64,000 bases of DNA from positions 52,712-116,711 of IMG/VR virus record IMGVR_UViG_3300009071_002060; one strand, written 5' to 3'. Source of the DNA: a virus. Position numbers and translations under genes: made by a program. This document shows, piece after piece, positions 16,670 to 49,410 of this stretch. The notes below the pieces were generated by a model. It made no database searches. It was not told where the DNA came from and was given only the letters and a program-made list of their open reading frames with translations. Positions within the stretch are counted from its first letter, which is position 1. Each line of letters begins with the position of its first letter.

Positions 16670-17259
16670 TGCCCAATTTAATACCCACAGTTCTTGAAAA
16701 AACAAGCGAAGGTGAACGTGCCTATGACATTTATAGCCGTTTGCTCAAAGATAGAATTGTATTACTTGATACTGAAGTAAATGAACATAGTGCAAGTTTG
16801 CTTGTTAGTCAATTTTTATTCTTAGAAGCAGATGATCCTGATAGCGATATTATGTTTTATATTAACAGTCCTGGTGGTAGTGTTACTGCTGGTATGGCTA
16901 TATATGATGTTATGCAATTTGTTAAAAGTGATGTTTCAACCATTGTTATGGGACAAGCCTGTTCAATGGGTAGTCTATTAAGCACGGCTGGTGCCGCTGG
17001 AAAACGTTTTATTCTCCCACATGCAAGACACATGATTCATCAACCAAGCGGTGGTGCCAGAGGACAAGCAACAGACATGCAAATACAGGTAGAAGAGATT
17101 ATAGAAATGAAACGTTATCTAACTCAAATCTACGTTGACCACAATAGCAAAGGAAAAACATTTGAAGAGTTTGCTGAAGGTATGGAAAGAGACAATTTTA
17201 TGTCCGCACAACAATCAGTTGATTTTGGACTGGTAGATGAGATTCTAACCAAACGATGA
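16666..17259 (+). CDS. clpP: ATP-dependent Clp protease proteolytic subunit
   Basis: ClpP is the tetradecameric serine protease driven by ClpA/ClpX. The 197-residue protein has all hallmarks: [16 protein letters not shown], nucleophile Ser100 in [10 protein letters not shown], His125 in [10 protein letters not shown] and Asp176 in MERDNFM. No Clp ATPase is present in the window, so it would have to work with host ClpX/ClpA or replace host ClpP. It overlaps the upstream and downstream genes by 4 bases each (ATGA), indicating a tightly coupled operon. ATG 16669 is an alternative start. Confidence 0.93.
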
Positions 17260-17852
17260 CCTTAGAAAATAGTCTAAGTAAGAAGTTCAATATCAAACGT
17301 CTTGAAGATTTAAAGTATGATCCTGTTCATCCTGATAGCATACACAATCCTCGACGTTTAGGTGATGACAGAGAAATATTTTTCTTATTAGAAGAAGATA
17401 CAACAACGTTTGTTTTATGTGTAGCATATACTGATGTATTACCTAACACAATGGATGAAATTTTAGATACTAGTCATGTAGCTAAGAATCCTAAGTTTGC
17501 TATTTTTTACAGTGTTTTTAAAACTCCACACATACAAAATACAGTACACAAAGGTGGTTGGTTAATACTTAGTGCGGCCAGTTATATTAAAGAAAACTAT
17601 CCCACCATTGAACATTTTACTACAATGAGCCCTATACCTAGTCTCTCTAAAAAGTTTGATGCAACTGTTACAGAACAGCAAATAAATGATTATATTATGA
17701 CACGTAAAGATCCTGTCAGTTCATTTCATTTAAAGAACGGTGCTGATTTGATTAGAATTATTCCTGACGCTGATAGTACTGCAATACGTATTAGTCAGAG
17801 CTGGGGATACATGGCCAATTACGATTATACGTCACTCGTCAATACTCTCTAA
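17256..17852 (+). CDS. Malonyl-CoA decarboxylase-like protein (GNAT-fold catalytic domain only)
   Basis: The 198-residue protein matches the C-terminal catalytic part of malonyl-CoA decarboxylase (MCD), which turns malonyl-CoA into acetyl-CoA and CO2. Points of agreement: FAIFYSV strand, TMSPIPSL holding Ser125 at the place of the MCD catalytic Ser, [12 protein letters not shown] holding His158 at the place of the catalytic His, and the final [12 protein letters not shown] (MCD: QSxGxMxNYxY). The N-terminal helical domain of MCD is missing, so it is about half the usual length. Coupled to clpP by a 4-base overlap. Likely effect would be on fatty-acid precursor supply; this is inference. Confidence 0.7.
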
Positions 17853-17894: not shown

Positions 17895-18338
17895 ATGTAC
17901 GAGTATAAATGTAAAATTCTAAAAGTAATTGACGGCGACACCGTTGATATTGATATTGACCTAGGTTTTGACGTAGTATTAACTAACCAACGTGTTAGAA
18001 TGTTTGGAATTGATACTCCAGAATCCAGAACAAGAGATAAAGAAGAAAAGAAATTTGGACTACTAAGTAAAAAGTATGTTCTTGACAGGCTACCTAAAGG
18101 AAGTTACCAAACACTTAAAACTGAAATTGACAGAGATGGCGATGATGCAAGAGGAAAATTTGGTCGTATACTTGGTAGTTTTATGGTATATGATAGTGTT
18201 GATGATCGACAAAGTAGTATCAATGAAATGATGATACGAGATGGGTATGCTGTAGCATATCACGGTCAGAACAAAGATGATATACTTGCAGAGCATATGT
18301 CCAATAGAGACAAGCTAAAGGCCGCTGGCGTTATATGA
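17895..18338 (+). CDS. Staphylococcal-nuclease-like (SNase) endonuclease
   Basis: 147 residues with the SNase OB-fold signature: KVIDGDTVDIDIDLGF, VRMFGIDTPESRTRDKEEKKFG with the catalytic Arg and Asp, and GKFGRILG with the second Arg region. The family cuts DNA or RNA with calcium. No signal peptide, so it probably acts on host or phage DNA inside the cell. Such genes are common in T4-like marine phages. It overlaps the giant multidomain gene by 4 bases. Confidence 0.85.
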   Translation: MYEYKCKILKVIDGDTVDIDIDLGFDVVLTNQRVRMFGIDTPESRTRDKEEKKFGLLSKKYVLDRLPKGSYQTLKTEIDRDGDDARGKFGRILGSFMVYDSVDDRQSSINEMMIRDGYAVAYHGQNKDDILAEHMSNRDKLKAAGVI

Positions 18339-21300
18339 AAATCAAAGAACTCAAGATAGACAAACCAGTTGATAGCAACTGGGGCATTCCTCGTTCACAA
18401 ATGCCTCAGATACAAACCAACGACTATCCTGCGTTCCTTGACTACCTAGATTCGCATGGTGTTAATTTTGTAAAAGATACTGTTCCAGCACACTCATTAA
18501 AACCTATACAAGGCGAATTTAGTGATAAAGGTGTTGAGAAAGCACTAGCTAAACGTAAACTTGATAAACCTTGTATTGTTAGCAGTGATGGTCATATCAT
18601 TGACGGACACCACAGGTGGTTGGCGGCACTTAACACAAAGCAAAACGTTAGTGTATACAAAGCTGATATACCAGCACACGATTTATTAAAGTTAGTAAAC
18701 GATTTTCCTAAAGTGTATTACAAAAACATATACACTGAAAGTGATGTTAACTATGTTAAACCACAGTTTGATGTAGAATGGGAAGAAGCAAATCGTTATA
18801 ACTACTTTGACAAACTAGGACAAGCAGGTTGGGAAGAACTTGCAAGTAAAGGAAAAGTTGTAAAAGTTAATACAAATAGTGTAAAGAAAATAGGCAATAC
18901 AGGTGCAGACGGAAGCGAATCATTAGATGATTTAGAAACAGATAAAGTTGCAAGATTAAAAAAAGCAATGGCCAGCGGTACAGTTGAAATGCCAATAGTT
19001 GTTAAACAACCAAATGGAAGTTTAGATTTGGTTGCAGGAAACACTAGACTAATAGGACTTATAAGCACACAAGGTGAAGCAAAAGTTTGGTTAGTGGATG
19101 CAAGTAAGTTAGAAGAAAACTTTGCAGACGGTAAAGTAAAAGGTAAAAGTAGACCAGGACGAGTTAAAAAGTCCGGTGCTAGTTGTAATGGATCAGTAAC
19201 AAGTCTTAGAGCCAAAGCAAAAAAAGCAAGTGGCGAAAAAGCAAAAATGTATCATTGGTGTGCTAACATGAAATCAGGAAAGAAGAAAGCCAAGAAAGAA
19301 TCAGTGGAATCAGACAACATAATATCTGATGAAGTTCGTGTACTTGGAAAACTGTTTACCAAAAACGGATACGAAATAAGAGTGGTAGGTGGTGCAGTTA
19401 GAGATGTAGCACTTGGAAAAGAACCAAAAGACATTGATTTAGCTACAGATGCAACACCAACAGAGATGCAAGCCATGTTTGATAAGGCTAACCTTAAACA
19501 TATACCTACAGGCATAGAACACGGTACAATTAGTGTTATAATTGACAAAGAACCCTACGAAATTACCACCTTAAGGGCAGATAAAGAGACTGACGGACGA
19601 CATGCTGAAGTAGAGTTTGTTCGTAGTTGGGAACAAGATGCTGAACGTAGAGACTTAACATACAATGCAATGAGCATGGACATGGATGGTAAAATTCATG
19701 ACTACTTTAATGGCATGGATGATCTACAAGATAAAGTAAGTCGTTTTGTTGGTGATCCTACTAAACGTATACAAGAAGATTATCTACGTATATTACGATA
19801 CTTTCGTTTTCAAGCAAGGCTAGACAAACCAAAGTTTGACAAAGAAGCAATTGATGCTATTAGCAAAGAAGCAAAAGGACTTAAACAAATAAGTGCCGAA
19901 CGTGTATGGATGGAAATATCAAAGTTATTGATTGCACCAAGTGCAATACCAGTGCTAAAGCAAATGGGAGAAACTGGCGTAGCTGATGTTATTGGATTAG
20001 ATGTTAGCAATGCTAACAGTGTTAAATTTGATAATCCTATTATGAATCTAGCAATGTTATCAGATGATGTTGGTATTGGTGCTAAGTGGAAAATGTCCAA
20101 CGACAACAAAACTGAATTAGCATTTTATATAGCACACAAAAATAAAAAATTAAGTCAACAAGATGTTGAGGATATGATCAGTGATGGAGCGCCTGCAACC
20201 TACTTAGCAAATGTTCTAAAGATACAAGGGCAAGATCCAAATTGGGCTAAGGCACAAGTTCCGCAATTTCCTGTAACAGGTAAAGACTTGATTAATTTTG
20301 GAATTAAACCTGGTCCAAACATGGGTAAGATGCTTGATGTATTAAAACAGCAATGGAAGAAATCACGTTTTACAGCCAGCAAAGAAGATTTATTAAACAC
20401 ATTAAAGGAATCATTGATTAATCCTGATCCAAAATTACCAAATCTTAAAGAACCAAAAAAATTAAGCAAGTATTCAAAACGTAAAAAAGTGTTCAGTGAT
20501 AATAAAGATAAACCTGAAAACGAGGAACCCGAAAACTCCACCGATAACATTGTTGAAGACCTATCAGCTAATGCAGAATTGTATGTAGACATGGATGGTG
20601 TACTTGCGGACTTCTTTGGCGAGTGGGCAAAACTAATAGGTGTTGATAGCTGGCGTAATATTAAAAACATTGAACCAGCATTAGAGAAGATCAGGCAACA
20701 AAAAGATTTCTGGATTAACTTGCCAATGACAAGCAATGCTCTACAATTATTAAGTGCTATTAAAGCATACAAAGGCAAGTATAACATATTAAGTGCTCCG
20801 TTACCCGGTGATAAGAACTCTGAACCACAGAAACGTGCATGGATTAAAAAGAATTTAAGTTCTTTCCCGCCAGAAAAAATTATTATTGATCATAACAAGG
20901 CCGCCTATGCAACCCAACCAGATGGAACACCAAATGGATTGATTGATGACTTTGGGCAAAATGTTAGTAAATGGGAAGCCGCAGGTGGAATTGCTATTAA
21001 ACATAATGATCTAAAAATAGATAGAACTATAAGCAAATTGGACAAAGAAACAAGTACACCTTCGTATAGTATAAACGAAGATGATGTTGAAGTAAGCATG
21101 TATGGTGATGCTGAAAAAGGTTATACACTAAGCAAAATTGTAGTACCAAAAGAATTACGTGGGACAGGTATTGGTTCCAAGAAGATGCGAGAGCTTGTTG
21201 ATAAAGCAGATAACGAAGGCGCTATTATTGCACTCACACCAGACACAACGTTTGGAGCATCATCTAAAGGACGATTAATTAAATTTTATAAAGGATTTGG

Positions 21301-21397
21301 ATTTGTACCGAATGTAGGCCGTAACAAAGATTTTCGTTACAGGGAGACCATGATTCGTTACCCCAAGTCGAGTGGAGGTAAAGATAGCACTCAATGA
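18335..21397 (+). CDS. Multidomain protein: ParB-like + tRNA nucleotidyltransferase-like + HAD + GNAT (1020 aa)
   Basis: Domains in order: ParB-like (about 30-110, DGHIIDGHHRWLAAL); a second ParB-like unit (about 140-255, LVAGNTRLIGLI); a Lys-rich module (about 269-322, SRPGRVKKSGASCNGS ... YHWCANMKSGKKK); a class II CCA-adding/poly(A) polymerase head (about 330-470, RVVGGAVRDVALG, DIDLATDA, ERRDLTYNAM) with its RNA-binding part (RILRYFRFQARL) to about 690; a HAD/5'-nucleotidase domain (748-890, YVDMDGVLADFFGEW); and a GNAT end (about 930-1015, KELRGTGIGSKKMREL). The fusion resembles phage 'polyvalent proteins' thought to enter the host with DNA. No frameshift is seen; each domain keeps key residues. 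Function of the whole is inference. Confidence 0.85.
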   Translation: MKIKELKIDKPVDSNWGIPRSQMPQIQTNDYPAFLDYLDSHGVNFVKDTVPAHSLKPIQGEFSDKGVEKALAKRKLDKPCIVSSDGHIIDGHHRWLAALNTKQNVSVYKADIPAHDLLKLVNDFPKVYYKNIYTESDVNYVKPQFDVEWEEANRYNYFDKLGQAGWEELASKGKVVKVNTNSVKKIGNTGADGSESLDDLETDKVARLKKAMASGTVEMPIVVKQPNGSLDLVAGNTRLIGLISTQGEAKVWLVDASKLEENFADGKVKGKSRPGRVKKSGASCNGSVTSLRAKAKKASGEKAKMYHWCANMKSGKKKAKKESVESDNIISDEVRVLGKLFTKNGYEIRVVGGAVRDVALGKEPKDIDLATDATPTEMQAMFDKANLKHIPTGIEHGTISVIIDKEPYEITTLRADKETDGRHAEVEFVRSWEQDAERRDLTYNAMSMDMDGKIHDYFNGMDDLQDKVSRFVGDPTKRIQEDYLRILRYFRFQARLDKPKFDKEAIDAISKEAKGLKQISAERVWMEISKLLIAPSAIPVLKQMGETGVADVIGLDVSNANSVKFDNPIMNLAMLSDDVGIGAKWKMSNDNKTELAFYIAHKNKKLSQQDVEDMISDGAPATYLANVLKIQGQDPNWAKAQVPQFPVTGKDLINFGIKPGPNMGKMLDVLKQQWKKSRFTASKEDLLNTLKESLINPDPKLPNLKEPKKLSKYSKRKKVFSDNKDKPENEEPENSTDNIVEDLSANAELYVDMDGVLADFFGEWAKLIGVDSWRNIKNIEPALEKIRQQKDFWINLPMTSNALQLLSAIKAYKGKYNILSAPLPGDKNSEPQKRAWIKKNLSSFPPEKIIIDHNKAAYATQPDGTPNGLIDDFGQNVSKWEAAGGIAIKHNDLKIDRTISKLDKETSTPSYSINEDDVEVSMYGDAEKGYTLSKIVVPKELRGTGIGSKKMRELVDKADNEGAIIALTPDTTFGASSKGRLIKFYKGFGFVPNVGRNKDFRYRETMIRYPKSSGGKDSTQ

Positions 21398-23193: not shown

Positions 23194-23430
23194 ATGAAAA
23201 AGATCTCAGACAATTTCCACAACGAACTATGGGTAGGTATGAATGCCGCCCTAGCCAGAACAGAGAACTATTATAGTGATGGTGCTGTTAATTGGAGTTA
23301 TGTAGATGCAGATGTGTATATGCATATGGCTAAACAGTATGATGTAAGGACTAGCAATAGCCTTAATGACAAGTATAGGAATCTATTTGAAGCGGCATGT
23401 GATACGATAGATGAGGGTATGGCAATATGA
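23194..23430 (+). CDS. Hypothetical protein (78 aa)
   Basis: ATG 23194 follows the previous stop by one base and has GGAG about 8 bases upstream within the preceding gene; a longer frame from 23140 is less likely. Mostly helical soluble protein (SYVDADVYMHMAKQYDVRTSNSLNDKYRNLFEAACDTIDEG). It overlaps the alarmone hydrolase start by 4 bases, so it is co-translated with it. Not recognised. Confidence 0.65.
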   Translation: MKKISDNFHNELWVGMNAALARTENYYSDGAVNWSYVDADVYMHMAKQYDVRTSNSLNDKYRNLFEAACDTIDEGMAI

Positions 23431-23948
23431 AAGAAAATGAAGTTAAACCGTTGGCTCTAAGAGCCTTACAGTTTGCCACTGAAGCACATGCATCAATTGG
23501 GCAGAAACGAAAGTATAGTGGGGAAGACTATATAGTACACCCCATCGAAGTTTCTGGACTAGTTAAAAAGTATGGCGGATCTGCTGAAATGCAGGCCGCG
23601 GCTCTGTTGCATGATACAGTAGAAGATACTCCTGTTACCATTGGTGATATTAACAGTGAGTTTGGTCCTGTTGTGGCCAAATTGGTTGCTGATCTAACTG
23701 ACATCAGTAAACCTGAAGATGGTAATCGTAAACTACGTAAATCCATGGATAGAGACCATACTGCTAATGCTAGTAGAGATGCTCAGATCATCAAGTTGGC
23801 TGATTTAATCAGCAACACGGTAAGTATCAAGGCGGAAGACCCTAATTTTTGGAAAGTATACAAAGTAGAGAAAATTGCTTTGCTTGATGTTATGACCAAA
23901 GTTACAGATCATCCGTTGTACAAAATAGCATTGGAGCAAATCAAATGA
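23427..23948 (+). CDS. Small HD-domain (p)ppGpp hydrolase-like protein (MESH1/SpoT HD type)
   Basis: The 173-residue protein is a stand-alone HD hydrolase in the SpoT/MESH1 pattern: AHASIGQKRKYSGEDYIVHPIEVS (early His and the HP motif), ALLHDTVEDTPV (His62-Asp63 and ED), and RDAQIIKLADLISNT supplying the last Asp. Enzymes of this set remove the 3' pyrophosphate of (p)ppGpp with manganese. There is no synthetase or TGS domain. In a phage it could lower the stringent response; a broader nucleotide hydrolase role cannot be excluded. Overlaps neighbours by 4 bases on both sides. Confidence 0.8.
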   Translation: MKENEVKPLALRALQFATEAHASIGQKRKYSGEDYIVHPIEVSGLVKKYGGSAEMQAAALLHDTVEDTPVTIGDINSEFGPVVAKLVADLTDISKPEDGNRKLRKSMDRDHTANASRDAQIIKLADLISNTVSIKAEDPNFWKVYKVEKIALLDVMTKVTDHPLYKIALEQIK

Positions 23949-25651: not shown

Positions 25652-26959
25652 ATGTTAGAACTACTGTTAATTGGTATACTAGGACTAGTTGTTGGAATGG
25701 CACTAGGACTGTTTAGTGTTTTTCCTATATATTTTGCAGGCTTTGTTGTGTATGCATTACACACGGCTTGGACACCTGAGTTGTTATTGGTGTTTTGGGC
25801 TACAGCCGCTATTGGAAGTCAGTTCTTTGGAAGTGTTAGTACAATCACACTGGGTATACCTGGAGAAGCAAGTGCCTTAGTATGGATCAAAGACCTCAAA
25901 GGCATGAGTTTACAAGAACGAAACTATTTGCTATACCATACTGCTAAAGGTAGTTTGTTTGCAGGATTAATAGCTCTAGGTGTTGTGTGGTTAGCCTATC
26001 ATTGGGTAAGTGCTTACAGTTACTTTCTATCAAGCGTCAATTTTGTATTAGCAATGTTCCTGTTGGTTATTGCACTATTTGCATTTACCGATCGTAAACC
26101 TTTAATAGCAATTGGTTTGTTATGTTTGGGTACGTTCTTAGGCCCTGTTAATAACTTTGCATTGCCACCCTGGTGGTATCATGTGCAACTTTGGTTTGAA
26201 AATACCAGCTTCTTTATGCTTATTGCAAGTATGATGTTGATACCAGATCTAATAATGGACAGAGCTAACTTTAAACATATAAAAACAGATCATTTTGAAC
26301 CCAGTGATAACGACGAACGAACATGGTGGACTATATCTAAGAGTACCGTTATTGGTTTATTCAGCGGATTGGTACCAGGACCAGCGGCTGAAACTGCTAG
26401 TGCATTGGCATACCATGCTCACAAAAAGAAAGGTAGATTCCATCAGATTGTTGGTGCCGAAACTGCTAACAATCCCGGAGTGGTAATGATGTTACTTCCT
26501 TTCTTTGCAATGGGTTTACCAATTACTGCTAGTGCTTTGATTATATCAACAGTACTAGATGTTAAGAACGTCGATCCTGTAGAATTTGTAGCAAGTGCAT
26601 CATCAGTCATTCCAAGTTTCAGTGTATTTGATGTTATCATAATGGTAGCTTCAATTGCTACAGTATTTTATTATCTACTCAGCACTCGCTTTATTGATCT
26701 GTACGTAAACATTGTAAAATTCTTATACAGTAAGAGTGCTTACTTGTTGGTCATTATTGTGTTTGCAATGATAATAGCAGATATGAGTGTTAACGAAACG
26801 CCAGTCTGGCTTTACTCAATCTTACTACTTTTTTTTACCGTCGGCGGTATCTTGCTTAAATACTTCAGTATTAATCCTATCCTGTTTATATTTGGAACAA
26901 TGTTCGGCGATAAACTAATTTGGACACTCATGCAGTTTACATCAATAAACTTTTCATAA
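25652..26959 (+). CDS. TctA-family tripartite tricarboxylate transporter permease
   Basis: A 435-residue polytopic membrane protein. Two family repeats are visible: GSVSTITLGIPGEASALVWIKDL, matching the TctA GIPG motif, and IGLFSGLVPGPAAETASALAYHAHKK, matching the second PG motif, followed by GAETANNPG. About ten to twelve hydrophobic helices cover the rest. TctA partners a small TctB membrane subunit and a periplasmic TctC-type protein; no TctB gene is visible here. A late-type octamer TTAAATAG (25640-25647) precedes it. At somewhat under the usual 500 residues it looks complete. It would raise host uptake of an organic acid or similar solute. Confidence 0.85.
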   Translation: MLELLLIGILGLVVGMALGLFSVFPIYFAGFVVYALHTAWTPELLLVFWATAAIGSQFFGSVSTITLGIPGEASALVWIKDLKGMSLQERNYLLYHTAKGSLFAGLIALGVVWLAYHWVSAYSYFLSSVNFVLAMFLLVIALFAFTDRKPLIAIGLLCLGTFLGPVNNFALPPWWYHVQLWFENTSFFMLIASMMLIPDLIMDRANFKHIKTDHFEPSDNDERTWWTISKSTVIGLFSGLVPGPAAETASALAYHAHKKKGRFHQIVGAETANNPGVVMMLLPFFAMGLPITASALIISTVLDVKNVDPVEFVASASSVIPSFSVFDVIIMVASIATVFYYLLSTRFIDLYVNIVKFLYSKSAYLLVIIVFAMIIADMSVNETPVWLYSILLLFFTVGGILLKYFSINPILFIFGTMFGDKLIWTLMQFTSINFS

Positions 26960-27982: not shown

Positions 27983-28936
27983 TTACTTAGCTTCTAAAAT
28001 CTGACCTACTAAGTCTTGGCTGAAATAACCATCAAACTGGTCATAAACTGTAGAAGTTGCGTCTTTAAATTCTGCAACTGCTTCAGGTGTCCATTCGATA
28101 ACTTTAATGCCTTCTTCAATAGCACGACTTTTAGCGGCCGCACCGTCGATTAATGACTCTTCTCTTTCAGCTACTGCGGCAATCTTTGCACATTCAGTAA
28201 TAACAGCCTGTTGTTCGGCTGTTAGGCTATTCCAAATCTTGTCTGAAATAACAATGCTTGTTAAGAATAAAGCATGTTCAGTATCTGCAACTGTATCAGT
28301 AACAGTGTTGACAGCAGAACGGAAGTAACGTGGGAACACGTTCTCGCCGCCTTCACACTCGCCAGATGCAACTGACTGTGCAAAACCATCAACGCCCATT
28401 GGTACTGTGTTAACACCAACTGCTTTGAAAGTAGCTTCTGAAACTGGGCTTGTACCACATCTCATTGTTGTACCAGCAAAGTCTGCAATACTATGAACTT
28501 CGTCATTAGTAGCAATCATTTTGAATCCACCACTGTATGTGAACGCAAGTCCACGTGCGCCGGAAGTATCAGCTAGTCCGTCTAGTAGGTAGTGTCCTAC
28601 TGGTCCGTCTAGTACACGAGCGGCATGATCGTGATTTTCAAAGATGAAAGGCATATCGAGTGAATAGTAGTCTTCATTTAAAAGACCAAGAACAGTACTA
28701 TAAGTTTGGCTCATAGAAACTTCACCTTGCTCTAGCTTCTTTAGAAGAGCACGGTTTCCAATTTCTTCACCGTTATTGTACTTGTCTTGCCATTCGTTTT
28801 TACCTAGGACTTCAACTTCAATTGCTCCATCAGTTTTTTCACTTACTGCCTTACTGAAAGCTTCAGCTGAGCGAAGGAAAAGATCGTATGGAACATGAGC
28901 TAAGACCCAAGTAAGTTTTAGGGTATCTTTGTTCAT
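27983..28936 (-). CDS. TRAP-transporter DctP-like binding protein without signal peptide
   Basis: The 317-residue protein follows the DctP fold: LKLTWVLAHVPYDLFLRSAEAFSKAVSEKTDGAIEVEV at the start, then MSQTYSTVLG, the substrate-pocket Arg in TTMRCGTSPVSEATFKAVGVNTVPM and ENVFPRYF. ATG 28936 follows AAGGAG; even a start at 28990 gives no signal peptide. So the protein should stay in the cytoplasm or virion, unlike real TRAP binding proteins. No TRAP membrane subunits are nearby. A late-type octamer on the minus strand (29067-29074) lies upstream. It may be a repurposed ligand sensor or virion protein. Confidence 0.75.
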   Translation of the reverse strand: MNKDTLKLTWVLAHVPYDLFLRSAEAFSKAVSEKTDGAIEVEVLGKNEWQDKYNNGEEIGNRALLKKLEQGEVSMSQTYSTVLGLLNEDYYSLDMPFIFENHDHAARVLDGPVGHYLLDGLADTSGARGLAFTYSGGFKMIATNDEVHSIADFAGTTMRCGTSPVSEATFKAVGVNTVPMGVDGFAQSVASGECEGGENVFPRYFRSAVNTVTDTVADTEHALFLTSIVISDKIWNSLTAEQQAVITECAKIAAVAEREESLIDGAAAKSRAIEEGIKVIEWTPEAVAEFKDATSTVYDQFDGYFSQDLVGQILEAK

Positions 28937-29066
28937 TTTATACATTCTCCTTATATATGCATATATTTTAGCTTTACATCTATTCAACAAAAAAATTTAC
29001 TAGTATATATCTTTGTTGGGGGAATCTACAACGGGTTGGTTGTAAAGTATAAGATTTCTGCTAATG

Positions 29067-48640: not shown

Positions 48641-48892
48641 ATGCACCCTCTTGGTAGCGATCTGTCTGAATTGAGTGACTCTGATTTACAAGAACGTATT
48701 TCAGAATTGCATCAAAAAAGAATGACAGCAAATCGAGTTGGCAGTATGGATTTACTGAGACAAATTGATATGTTGTTAGCAGATTGTAACCAAGAGGTGT
48801 ACGACCGCAATGCAAAGATTATGCATAAAATGGATACTAAACGTGAAGAGAGCGGTTTAGATAAACTTATTAATGTATCGAAAAAGAAATGA
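48641..48892 (+). CDS. Hypothetical protein, helical (83 aa)
   Basis: Charged helical protein (LSDSDLQERISELHQKRMTANRVGSMDLLRQIDMLLADCNQEVYDRN) with a coiled-coil pattern and basic tail. The stop overlaps the next start by 4 bases (ATGA). Similar short proteins occur in T4-like phages, without known role. Confidence 0.65.
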   Translation: MHPLGSDLSELSDSDLQERISELHQKRMTANRVGSMDLLRQIDMLLADCNQEVYDRNAKIMHKMDTKREESGLDKLINVSKKK

Positions 48893-49410
48893 TTAACTAC
48901 GATAAATTTGGACAAGCATATTGCACACAGGAAGATTTATGTGATGTATTATACAAAAATCCTAACCAAGATATTTCAAAGTTTCTCTTAGTACAAGAAG
49001 AAACAGATTTATATAATAAGTCTGTTGAACGTTACTTTAATCAAGTACCAACAATCAATGCATACAAAATGCTTGATGGTGACATTGAAGACTTTGATAA
49101 TTTTAATCAATCCCATTGGGATATGCCCAATGAGTATAAAGAATTAGACATCTGTGCATGGTTACTTGAACAATGCAATCACGACACAGAATTACAAAGA
49201 GTAGGAGAAGAACTTTTACTCTATCAAGAAAGAGATTTATTTGACTTGCTTAAATTTCTTAAGTATTTTATTGACACACTTAGATCTAACGATATAGTAT
49301 GGGGTGTTGGTAGAGGAAGTAGTGTAGCAAGTTTCGTGTTATACCTAATAGGTGTACACAAAATTAACAGTATATATTACGATTTAGATATCAGTGAATT
49401 TTTACGATAA
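48889..49410 (+). CDS. Protein with C-family DNA polymerase III alpha-like palm motif (173 aa)
   Basis: The C-terminal 40 residues NDIVWGVGRGSSVASFVLYLIGVHKINSIYYDLDISEFLR match the PolIII alpha (DnaE) segment containing the GRGSxxxSxVxYxLxI ... DPL.[YF]xLxxERFL motif. The rest (helical, acidic) is not clearly alike, and the catalytic Asp residues of DnaE are not all present because the protein ends right after this motif. It may be a decayed polymerase piece or an inhibitor mimic. Overlaps the preceding gene by 4 bases. Confidence 0.6.
   Translation: MINYDKFGQAYCTQEDLCDVLYKNPNQDISKFLLVQEETDLYNKSVERYFNQVPTINAYKMLDGDIEDFDNFNQSHWDMPNEYKELDICAWLLEQCNHDTELQRVGEELLLYQERDLFDLLKFLKYFIDTLRSNDIVWGVGRGSSVASFVLYLIGVHKINSIYYDLDISEFLR

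Follow-up and report, generated by a model that had tools for sequence, protein, structure and literature searches.

Why would a phage encode a tRNA nucleotidyltransferase in one open frame with five other units, and where would such a chain act? The gene in question lies in a window of 64,000 nucleotides, the whole stretch of viral DNA analyzed, at positions 18335..21397 (+); it starts with ATG and encodes 1020 amino acids. Two other virus records, L001 and L002, contain an identical protein; over 64 kb, the L002 record shares 99.94% identity with the window. An earlier note, made from the letters of the window, had described a 1020-residue multi-domain fusion in one frame, which the open frame and domain searches of each segment confirmed. 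Its heading counted four domains, whereas six units were found, but everything that it listed is present: in order, two ParB-like units, a basic Cys module, a CCA-adding enzyme, a HAD unit, and a GNAT unit, with homologous units in other arrangements elsewhere. The virus is probably an uncultured T4-like phage, and we infer that it is probably marine because homologues occur in cyanophages, pelagiphages, and Methylophilales phages and relatives were found in two MAGs.

Unit A (residues 1-135; 18335..18739, +) carries a GHHR motif, and its best match in the PHROG search was phrog_2859 (5.2e-27), an unnamed family; matches to ParB-named PHROG families were at 2.3e-4 or weaker, and its GHHR-bearing relatives align onto unit B. 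The latter (residues 136-258; 18740..19108, +; GNTR motif) is weak by sequence (phrog_3264 at 0.067, for a relative) and is ParB-like from a 12-sequence alignment and an AlphaFold model with a pLDDT of 92.4. Among the 42 best PDB matches of that model, 33 chains came from ParB, Noc, PadC, RK2 KorB, or sulfiredoxin entries, the rest being three SbnI chains and six of an Agrobacterium protein without stated function; the best E value was 0.013, none was below 0.001, and TM was about 0.4. The modeled fold of unit B is thus of the ParB/Srx type. Unit E (residues 744-900; 20564..21034, +) resembles HAD 5'(3')-deoxyribonucleotidases through phrog_2643 (3e-22), with PF06941 (9e-4) below its cut-off. 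Unit F (residues 916-1013; 21080..21373, +) is a GNAT acetyltransferase domain, matching PF00583 at 2.7e-4 (21.6 bits vs. a cut-off of 20.7) and phrog_10691 at 2.2e-23 over residues 927-1018.

Unit D (residues 327-697; 19313..20425, +), previously described as resembling a CCA-adding enzyme or poly(A) polymerase, gave the strongest identification. It matched PF01743 (3.3e-37) and PF12627 (2.2e-9), and its closest solved relative is human TRNT1 (chain 4x4w, 1.3e-81, residues 320-694). The conserved motifs GGAVRD, DID, RRDLTYNAM, and EDYLR are all intact; the first two, of the Pol-beta head domain, are invariant in four sequences, EDYLR aligns with human TRNT1 (we take EDxxR to be the nucleotide-selecting motif), and PF12627 covers the RNA-binding neck and body. 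There is therefore a strong case in the sequence for a class II CCA-adding tRNA nucleotidyltransferase, with CCA activity predicted. The earlier remark that no tRNA gene is seen holds within the 64-kb window, where none was found, but not for the virus, as its 228-kb record has five. All five encode their CCA; maturation of the phage's own tRNAs is thus an unlikely role for the enzyme, and repair is the more likely one. Jumbo-phage CCA-adding enzymes, which are likewise phage-carried, are treated under RNA repair in the accessible part of PMC7824862.

The units are reshuffled among fusion arrangements across related virus loci, which comprised a comparison set of 80 and a second 80 for replication. 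L081, the window's own record, was left out of all counts, near-identical contexts were collapsed, and L009 was omitted as the only one of 76 module proteins lacking ENFADG; the held-out counts further exclude one of the 80 new loci, in which no module was parsed, and contexts already seen. T4 gp21 cleaves after L/I-X-E (PMC9026906), and the junctions between units in the relatives resemble such prohead-protease sites. Immediately before the Cys module, P3 was L, I, V, or M in 45 of 53 distinct contexts, P1 = E being part of the anchor in this first set, as compared with 10/53 at P2, 7/53 at P4, and a background of 0.20. In the held-out junctions, where P1 was not imposed, it was E in 47/47, with LIVM at P3 in 43/47 but only 4/47 at P2 and 3/47 at P4. 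The motif is wider than that of T4: P3 was L or I in 29/53 and 17/47 contexts, the other hydrophobic residues being V or M.

The same pattern recurs at other junctions. Because the contexts share descent, nominal P values are too small for all of the junctions, the one before the Cys module included. In 38 of 51 contexts, the HAD motif is preceded by a site at a distance of 5-16 residues (12.8% in control windows); hydrophobic P3 residues precede 60/102 Glu there (P2 and P4, 15/102 each) against 7/352 Glu inside HAD itself. Part of this signal may reflect sequence conserved at the N-terminus of the HAD unit. [LIVM]xE precedes unit B in 8/11 contexts (control, 11.3%), and a canonical site precedes GNAT in two of three, the window protein included. 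Where the CCA enzyme is N-terminal, a site was found in 29/30; where it is internal, one lies nearby in 10/16 contexts (control, 13.2%), with a weak P3 signal (14/50 vs. 8/50 and 10/50).

Candidate protease sites had been anticipated in the linkers around residues 260-330 and 700-745, and T4-type L/I-x-E sites were found in both. The first predicted site, LEE261|N (19109..19117, +), occupies the junction with LIVM at P3 in 45/53 and 43/47 contexts, and its position is conserved across many unrelated fusion partners; the second, IVE741|D (20549..20557, +), precedes HAD. A third predicted site, INE915|D (21071..21079, +), matches the pattern at the GNAT edge, whereas LKE706|P (20444..20452, +) also matches but is doubtful because of its P1' proline. 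Two junctions are off-consensus: YTE135|S (18731..18739, +; P3 = Y), which is not among the eight of 11 unit-B contexts above, and, by direct reading, SVE325|S (19301..19309, +; P3 = S). The Cys module may therefore stay joined to the CCA enzyme. LEE261|N, IVE741|D, and INE915|D are the only well-placed canonical sites, and for the window protein alone they are not significant: canonical sites occur in two of five linkers, as defined here, plus INE915, which random placement equals with P = 0.10. Matching triplets also fall inside units (IKE5, IQE481, MGE546, LKE692, and MRE953).

These off-consensus junctions bear on whether the chain is cut at all. The chain could be a polyvalent protein of the kind described by Iyer et al. 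2017, packaged and injected whole, with its linker Glu motifs being incidental. Several conflict-related domains do occur here in one phage polypeptide, and ParB-like, GNAT, and Pol-beta-superfamily nucleotidyltransferase units are among the kinds given for such multi-domain proteins, which are thought to be injected, in the accessible part of PMC5512222; the same source has the N4 virion RNA polymerase packaged unprocessed and, by its authors' inference, P1 DdrB processed by a built-in metallopeptidase. However, the accessible part of PMC5512222 describes no gp21-type sites between units and names neither a CCA-adding enzyme nor a HAD nucleotidase. The hydrophobic-x-Glu junction motif is, moreover, sharp and replicated, and in free-standing forms it marks where the N-terminal leaders end; an uncut chain is thus unlikely. 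The comparative evidence supports the earlier idea of a packaged and injected multi-enzyme chain, but as one intact chain that idea is probably incomplete, since the relatives' junctions suggest at least partial cutting.

The unit behind LEE261|N is the basic two-Cys module, unit C (residues 262-318, NFADG...MYHWCANMKSGKK; 19118..19288, +). The earlier note gave it a minor place, yet it is real, and no other unit is as well conserved in the relatives retrieved, both of its Cys being nearly invariant in a 58-sequence alignment. Scans against Pfam, PHROG, and NCBIfam placed it in no family, the lone weak Pfam match touching it being OAR (0.008, below cut-off); its model, with two helices and a pLDDT of 67, is weak and had no PDB match at E up to 10. 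A BLAST search of annotated phages also gave no match at E up to 10 with the low-complexity filter on, a negative that may be due to masking because the filter may hide this lysine-rich query. A contig search of genomes gave two module relatives among 23 candidate stretches, in Pelagibacter and Neomarinimicrobiota MAGs, which may be binned phage DNA.

A general packaging tag was rejected as the leading reading of the module, which is single-copy in 18 of the 20 records searched and absent from the other two. In a variant of the cut-and-injected reading, compatible with it, the module would be not a working peptide but a C-terminal propeptide or tether, which would anchor cargo in the prohead and then be cut off. 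T4 Alt offers a precedent, a 63-residue C-terminal propeptide behind LTE-619 in the accessible part of PMC5694885, and the module stands at the chain end, behind the cleavage motif, in 68 of 75 proteins. In the window protein, however, it is internal, and seven distinct proteins of 66-71 amino acids consist only of leader, site, and module, with no cargo to anchor; one copy per record is also odd for a tag. Mean amino acid identity of the module is 0.87 at a four-fold-site identity of 0.50 (1378 pairs), which suggests that the module has its own function, and we regard the propeptide role as doubtful. It is likewise unlikely that recombination spread the module recently, as four-fold-site identity is only 0.50.

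The N-terminus of the window protein, MKIKELKIDK (18335..18364, +), resembles the leaders of its relatives and, by analogy with the T4 capsid-targeting sequence (CTS), may be a capsid-targeting leader; besides IKE5, no canonical cleavage site lies close behind it. The leader pattern, which was defined after viewing the first set, occurs in 41 of 63 distinct module or HAD proteins there vs. 119/809 other genes, and in 18 of 31 held-out proteins. Among the other genes, leaders were found in 78/279 located near a module or HAD gene (from 2 kb ahead of the nearest one to 4 kb beyond it) and in 41/530 elsewhere. Pelagibacter phage HTVC008M and Methylophilales phage Melnitz also have a HAD gene of this kind, with neighbors that look leader-like by eye. 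Where the module or the CCA enzyme comes first in the relatives' chains, a T4-like leader closes with the same hydrophobic-x-Glu motif, and a leader-like motif (e.g., MRINEVILHEE) is present somewhere in the N-terminal extension of 27 of 30 N-terminal CCA proteins, as counted with a widened, unanchored pattern.

The gene adjoins ClpP, SNase, and lipase genes, not head genes. Portal, S77 protease, and gp23 gave no match in the window's virus (G000-G002, records that may be incomplete) or in G003; the prohead protease of this virus was not seen because its records have no recognizable head genes. The S77 protease was found in two of 19 records, many of which are fragments; these two, G005 and G006, have T4-type portal and S77 protease genes, adjoined by eye by scaffold-like and gp23-like genes, the latter carrying LAE|N and LSE|S. 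The word TATAAATA, which we take to be T4 late-promoter-like, is not enriched in the window (four found vs. 7.5 expected). A link to virions comes from cyanophage S-SM1, in whose purified virions the cytidylyltransferase T4-GC190 was detected (PMC3037559). This enzyme begins with a leader, MKKFSAFLNE|A; over 203 amino acids, it shares 39% identity with the domain fused with the Cys module in L024, and its homologues neighbor the module in 47 of 77 loci and are sometimes its fusion partner. It differs in that the annotated phages have no Cys-module match in the filtered search above.

The non-head neighbors would suit an unpackaged, cytosolic multifunctional enzyme serving tRNA upkeep and nucleotide salvage during infection. 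CCA enzymes and 5'-nucleotidases are found in other phages too, and the six annotated-phage CCA enzymes examined, unlike that of the window, are single-enzyme genes with no leader by eye; as a further point against a packaged and cut chain, five of the six also have [LIVM]xE within the first 30 residues. The leader-like motif in the related N-terminal CCA proteins, the clustering of leader-bearing genes near the module gene in relatives, and the S-SM1 virion protein all argue against a cytosolic enzyme, and this alternative seems quite improbable.

We consider it probable, from the sequence evidence, that the product is an internal-head injection polyprotein, which would be packaged, at least partly cut, and injected. 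The N-terminal leader would send the chain to the prohead core, as T4 capsid-targeting sequences do, and during head maturation a gp21-type protease would cleave after the Glu of the hydrophobic-x-Glu motifs that separate the units. LEE261|N is the surest of these predicted sites, with IVE741|D and INE915|D as probable ones. The predicted products, lying with the DNA in the head, would be the ParB-like pair, a piece made of the Cys module and CCA enzyme, the nucleotidase, and the acetyltransferase. The released pieces would enter the cell on infection; the CCA enzyme would restore the 3' CCA ends of tRNAs damaged by host defense or starvation, and the remaining units would act on nucleotides, proteins, or DNA. 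Packaging, the cutting of this very protein, and injection are steps that we infer, and tRNA repair is the least certain of them.

T4 internal proteins IPI-III and Alt, which have a CTS and are processed by gp21, are the nearest known parallel. The relatives likewise have a short leader ending in hydrophobic-x-Glu, one of them, L007, carries a leader-like gene that weakly matches an ADP-ribosyltransferase, and small basic proteins and enzymes, found in the T4 head, are predicted for the head here. The differences are that several enzymes share one chain with repeated sites, that P3 may also be V or M, and that the cargo, whose packaging is only predicted, includes a CCA-adding enzyme.

In our judgment, little is known about the effectors that environmental phages inject. 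It may be, and we lean neither way, that many uncultured T4-like phages have a cut-and-deliver kit, in which interchangeable enzymes with prohead-protease sites stand behind one capsid-targeting leader, are freed in the head, and are injected, with the CCA enzyme delivered before phage expression and the Cys peptide of ~57 residues as a shared head component. Among the literature matches listed, none described a packaged CCA enzyme or this Cys module in its title or the start of its abstract. If true, a CCA-adding enzyme delivered with the genome before phage gene expression would be new, as would a single-copy, highly conserved basic Cys peptide as a group-wide head component, which gives a named target to seek in virions. 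The T4 type of targeting and cutting that is known from single internal proteins would then also serve to deliver multi-enzyme sets, and a tRNA-end repair enzyme would arrive at time zero, ahead of tRNA-damaging defenses or in starved hosts. The leader and hydrophobic-x-Glu junctions would provide a sequence-readable rule for predicting injected enzymes in uncultured phages.

The interval from 18,335 to 21,397 on the plus strand of the window is one uninterrupted ORF of 1020 amino acids, and two other virus records (194 and 228 kb) encode an identical protein; the window and the 228-kb record are 99.94% identical across 64 kb. From the N-terminus on, it comprises two ParB-like units (A and B), a basic two-Cys module (C), a class II CCA-adding enzyme (D), a HAD 5'-nucleotidase (E), and a GNAT domain (F). 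The earlier note had proposed such a fusion in a single frame, and the ORF itself, Pfam, PHROGs, the match to human TRNT1, and a model of unit B confirm a real multi-domain protein. Judged by sequence, the identity of unit D is beyond doubt: it matches PF01743 (3.3e-37) and TRNT1 (1.3e-81), and its stretches GGAVRD, DID, RRDLTYNAM, and EDYLR align with the human enzyme and are conserved in three relatives of 58-60% identity. Sequence evidence for unit B is weak, and its predicted structure (pLDDT 92.4) finds chiefly ParB, Noc, and sulfiredoxin chains (best E 0.013); PHROGs is the main support for units E and F, their Pfam scores being near or below the cut-off. Elsewhere in the window, a match to the malonyl-CoA decarboxylase C-terminal domain (17,256-17,852; PF05292, 5e-23) lies, in a phage, between ClpP and SNase genes, a TctA transporter gene (25,652-26,959) and a DctP-type solute-binding protein gene (27,983-28,990, minus strand) are present, with additional transporter-like genes seen by eye in G002, a record of the same virus, and a short protein (48,889-49,410) has a partial match to the NTPase domain of DNA polymerase III alpha (PF07733, 9e-9).

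The chain is best read as a predicted internal-head polyprotein of T4 type, and would be a variant both of polyvalent proteins and of internal proteins that bear a capsid-targeting sequence (CTS). Scanning IMG/VR with the whole protein gave at least 597 relatives of some part among 600 candidate stretches, and in the best 80 of these at least 597 the same units return in varied orders and with varied partners. Searching with four CCA units yielded 105 relatives among 117 candidates, of which 80 were kept, representing 46 distinct contexts; some join an A-type N-terminus, as in the window protein, with CCA and HAD. One of the latter, L202, also carries an HD_4 domain (a RelA/SpoT-type HD; residues 153-237); in the window HD_4 is a separate gene (23,427-23,948). 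Its occurrence both on its own and within a CCA polyprotein hints at a starvation-signal theme. By eye, a stretch GVGR[IV]...DVGP, elsewhere LFNLG[LM]xE, recurs in modular proteins of several loci (e.g., L062, L077, and L202).

Unit C is highly conserved, with mean amino acid identity of 87% versus 50% at shared four-fold sites (1378 pairs, 53 distinct copies). It is the C-terminal unit of 68 of 75 proteins, stands free as 66-71 amino acid proteins (seven distinct), and is single-copy in 18 of 20 records searched and missing from the other two, many records being fragments; the family libraries and annotated phage records searched gave no convincing match. A second basic two-Cys C-terminal stretch, ARH[ND]C...YW[SA]C, was seen by eye in the window's virus (L107, 8100-9071, a protein with no Pfam match) and in the cultured marine phages HTVC008M (gp131; L123, 4839-5240) and Melnitz-3 (locus tag 18; L122, 2590-4542).

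ENFADG marks the junction before unit C in 75 of 76 proteins, and the residues there, [LIVM]xE with Glu at P1, resemble a site of the T4 prohead protease gp21, which cleaves behind L/I-X-E (PMC9026906). Among 53 distinct upstream contexts, L, I, V, or M occupies P3 in 45, P2 in 10, and P4 in seven, P1 = E having belonged to the anchor; with that anchor dropped, 47 held-out contexts had E at P1 in 47/47 and a hydrophobic residue at P3, P2, and P4 in 43, four, and three. L or I alone accounts for P3 in only 29/53 and 17/47, so the motif is wider than that of T4. A site lies 5-16 residues before HAD in 38/51 contexts (random windows, 12.8%), and P3 is hydrophobic for 60/102 Glu residues in that stretch versus 7/352 within HAD, although part of this signal may be conserved N-terminal sequence of the HAD unit itself. 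Sites also precede unit B (8/11; control, 11.3%), unit F (2/3), N-terminal CCA units (29/30; control, 12.9%), and internal CCA units (10/16; control, 13.2%), where the P3 preference is weak (14/50). Because the contexts share ancestry, nominal P values overstate the case, and the contrast of P3 with its neighbors is the better argument.

Free-standing modules consist of a CTS-like leader, a site, and the module, e.g., MRIFELVE/NFADG and MRLRELIKISVQE/NFADG (slash, predicted cut), and the compact relative L003 (which shares its contig with L140) is arranged as leader, CCA, site, HAD, site, module. A leader pattern, composed after inspecting the first group, fits 41 of 63 distinct module/HAD proteins versus 119 of 809 other genes, and 18 of 31 held-out proteins; the other genes with it comprise 78/279 in the zone that starts 2 kb ahead of the nearest module/HAD gene and stops 4 kb past it, and 41/530 outside this zone. 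The version applied to CCA proteins was somewhat broader and could match away from the first start codon. Six CCA enzymes of annotated phages, picked from 60 matches listed of 878 records, showed no such leader by eye; five have [LIVM]xE within their first 30 residues. In L007 (4613-5494), a leader-like N-terminus precedes a stretch that resembles PARP/ADP-ribosyltransferase (PF00644; 1.6e-4, short of the cut-off), recalling T4 Alt.

In the window protein, canonical sites lie within or adjoining linkers at 261, 706, 741, and 915, and five further matches fall inside units. Only two of five linkers, as we defined them, hold a canonical site, which random placement matches with P = 0.10, and the junctions at 135 and 325 are off-consensus; the case for the predicted cutting thus comes from homology and is firmest at 261, while unit C may stay attached to the CCA enzyme.

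Two relatives' records, G005 and G006, encode a T4-type portal and S77 protease, adjoined, by eye, by scaffold-like and gp23-like genes, and their gp23-like proteins hold LAE/N and LSE/S. The portal was found in three of seven records searched and S77 in two of 19; the possibly incomplete records of the window's virus yielded no portal, S77, or gp23. The closest experimental finding is an indirect one: T4-GC190, a putative cytidylyltransferase, has been detected in cyanophage S-SM1 virions (PMC3037559). Its N-terminus is MKKFSAFLNE/A, and it is 39-44% identical to the domain preceding unit C in the relatives L024 and L078.

The window's virus has five tRNA genes (Thr, Trp, Ala, Gly, and Arg; L105, 8727-10,112, record G002). 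All five encode their 3' CCA, so the CCA enzyme more likely mends damaged or trimmed tRNA ends than matures these tRNAs; a review of jumbo phages discusses the CCA enzymes of phages as part of RNA repair (PMC7824862). Delivery of the enzyme at time zero would presumably counter a tRNA-damaging defense or starvation.
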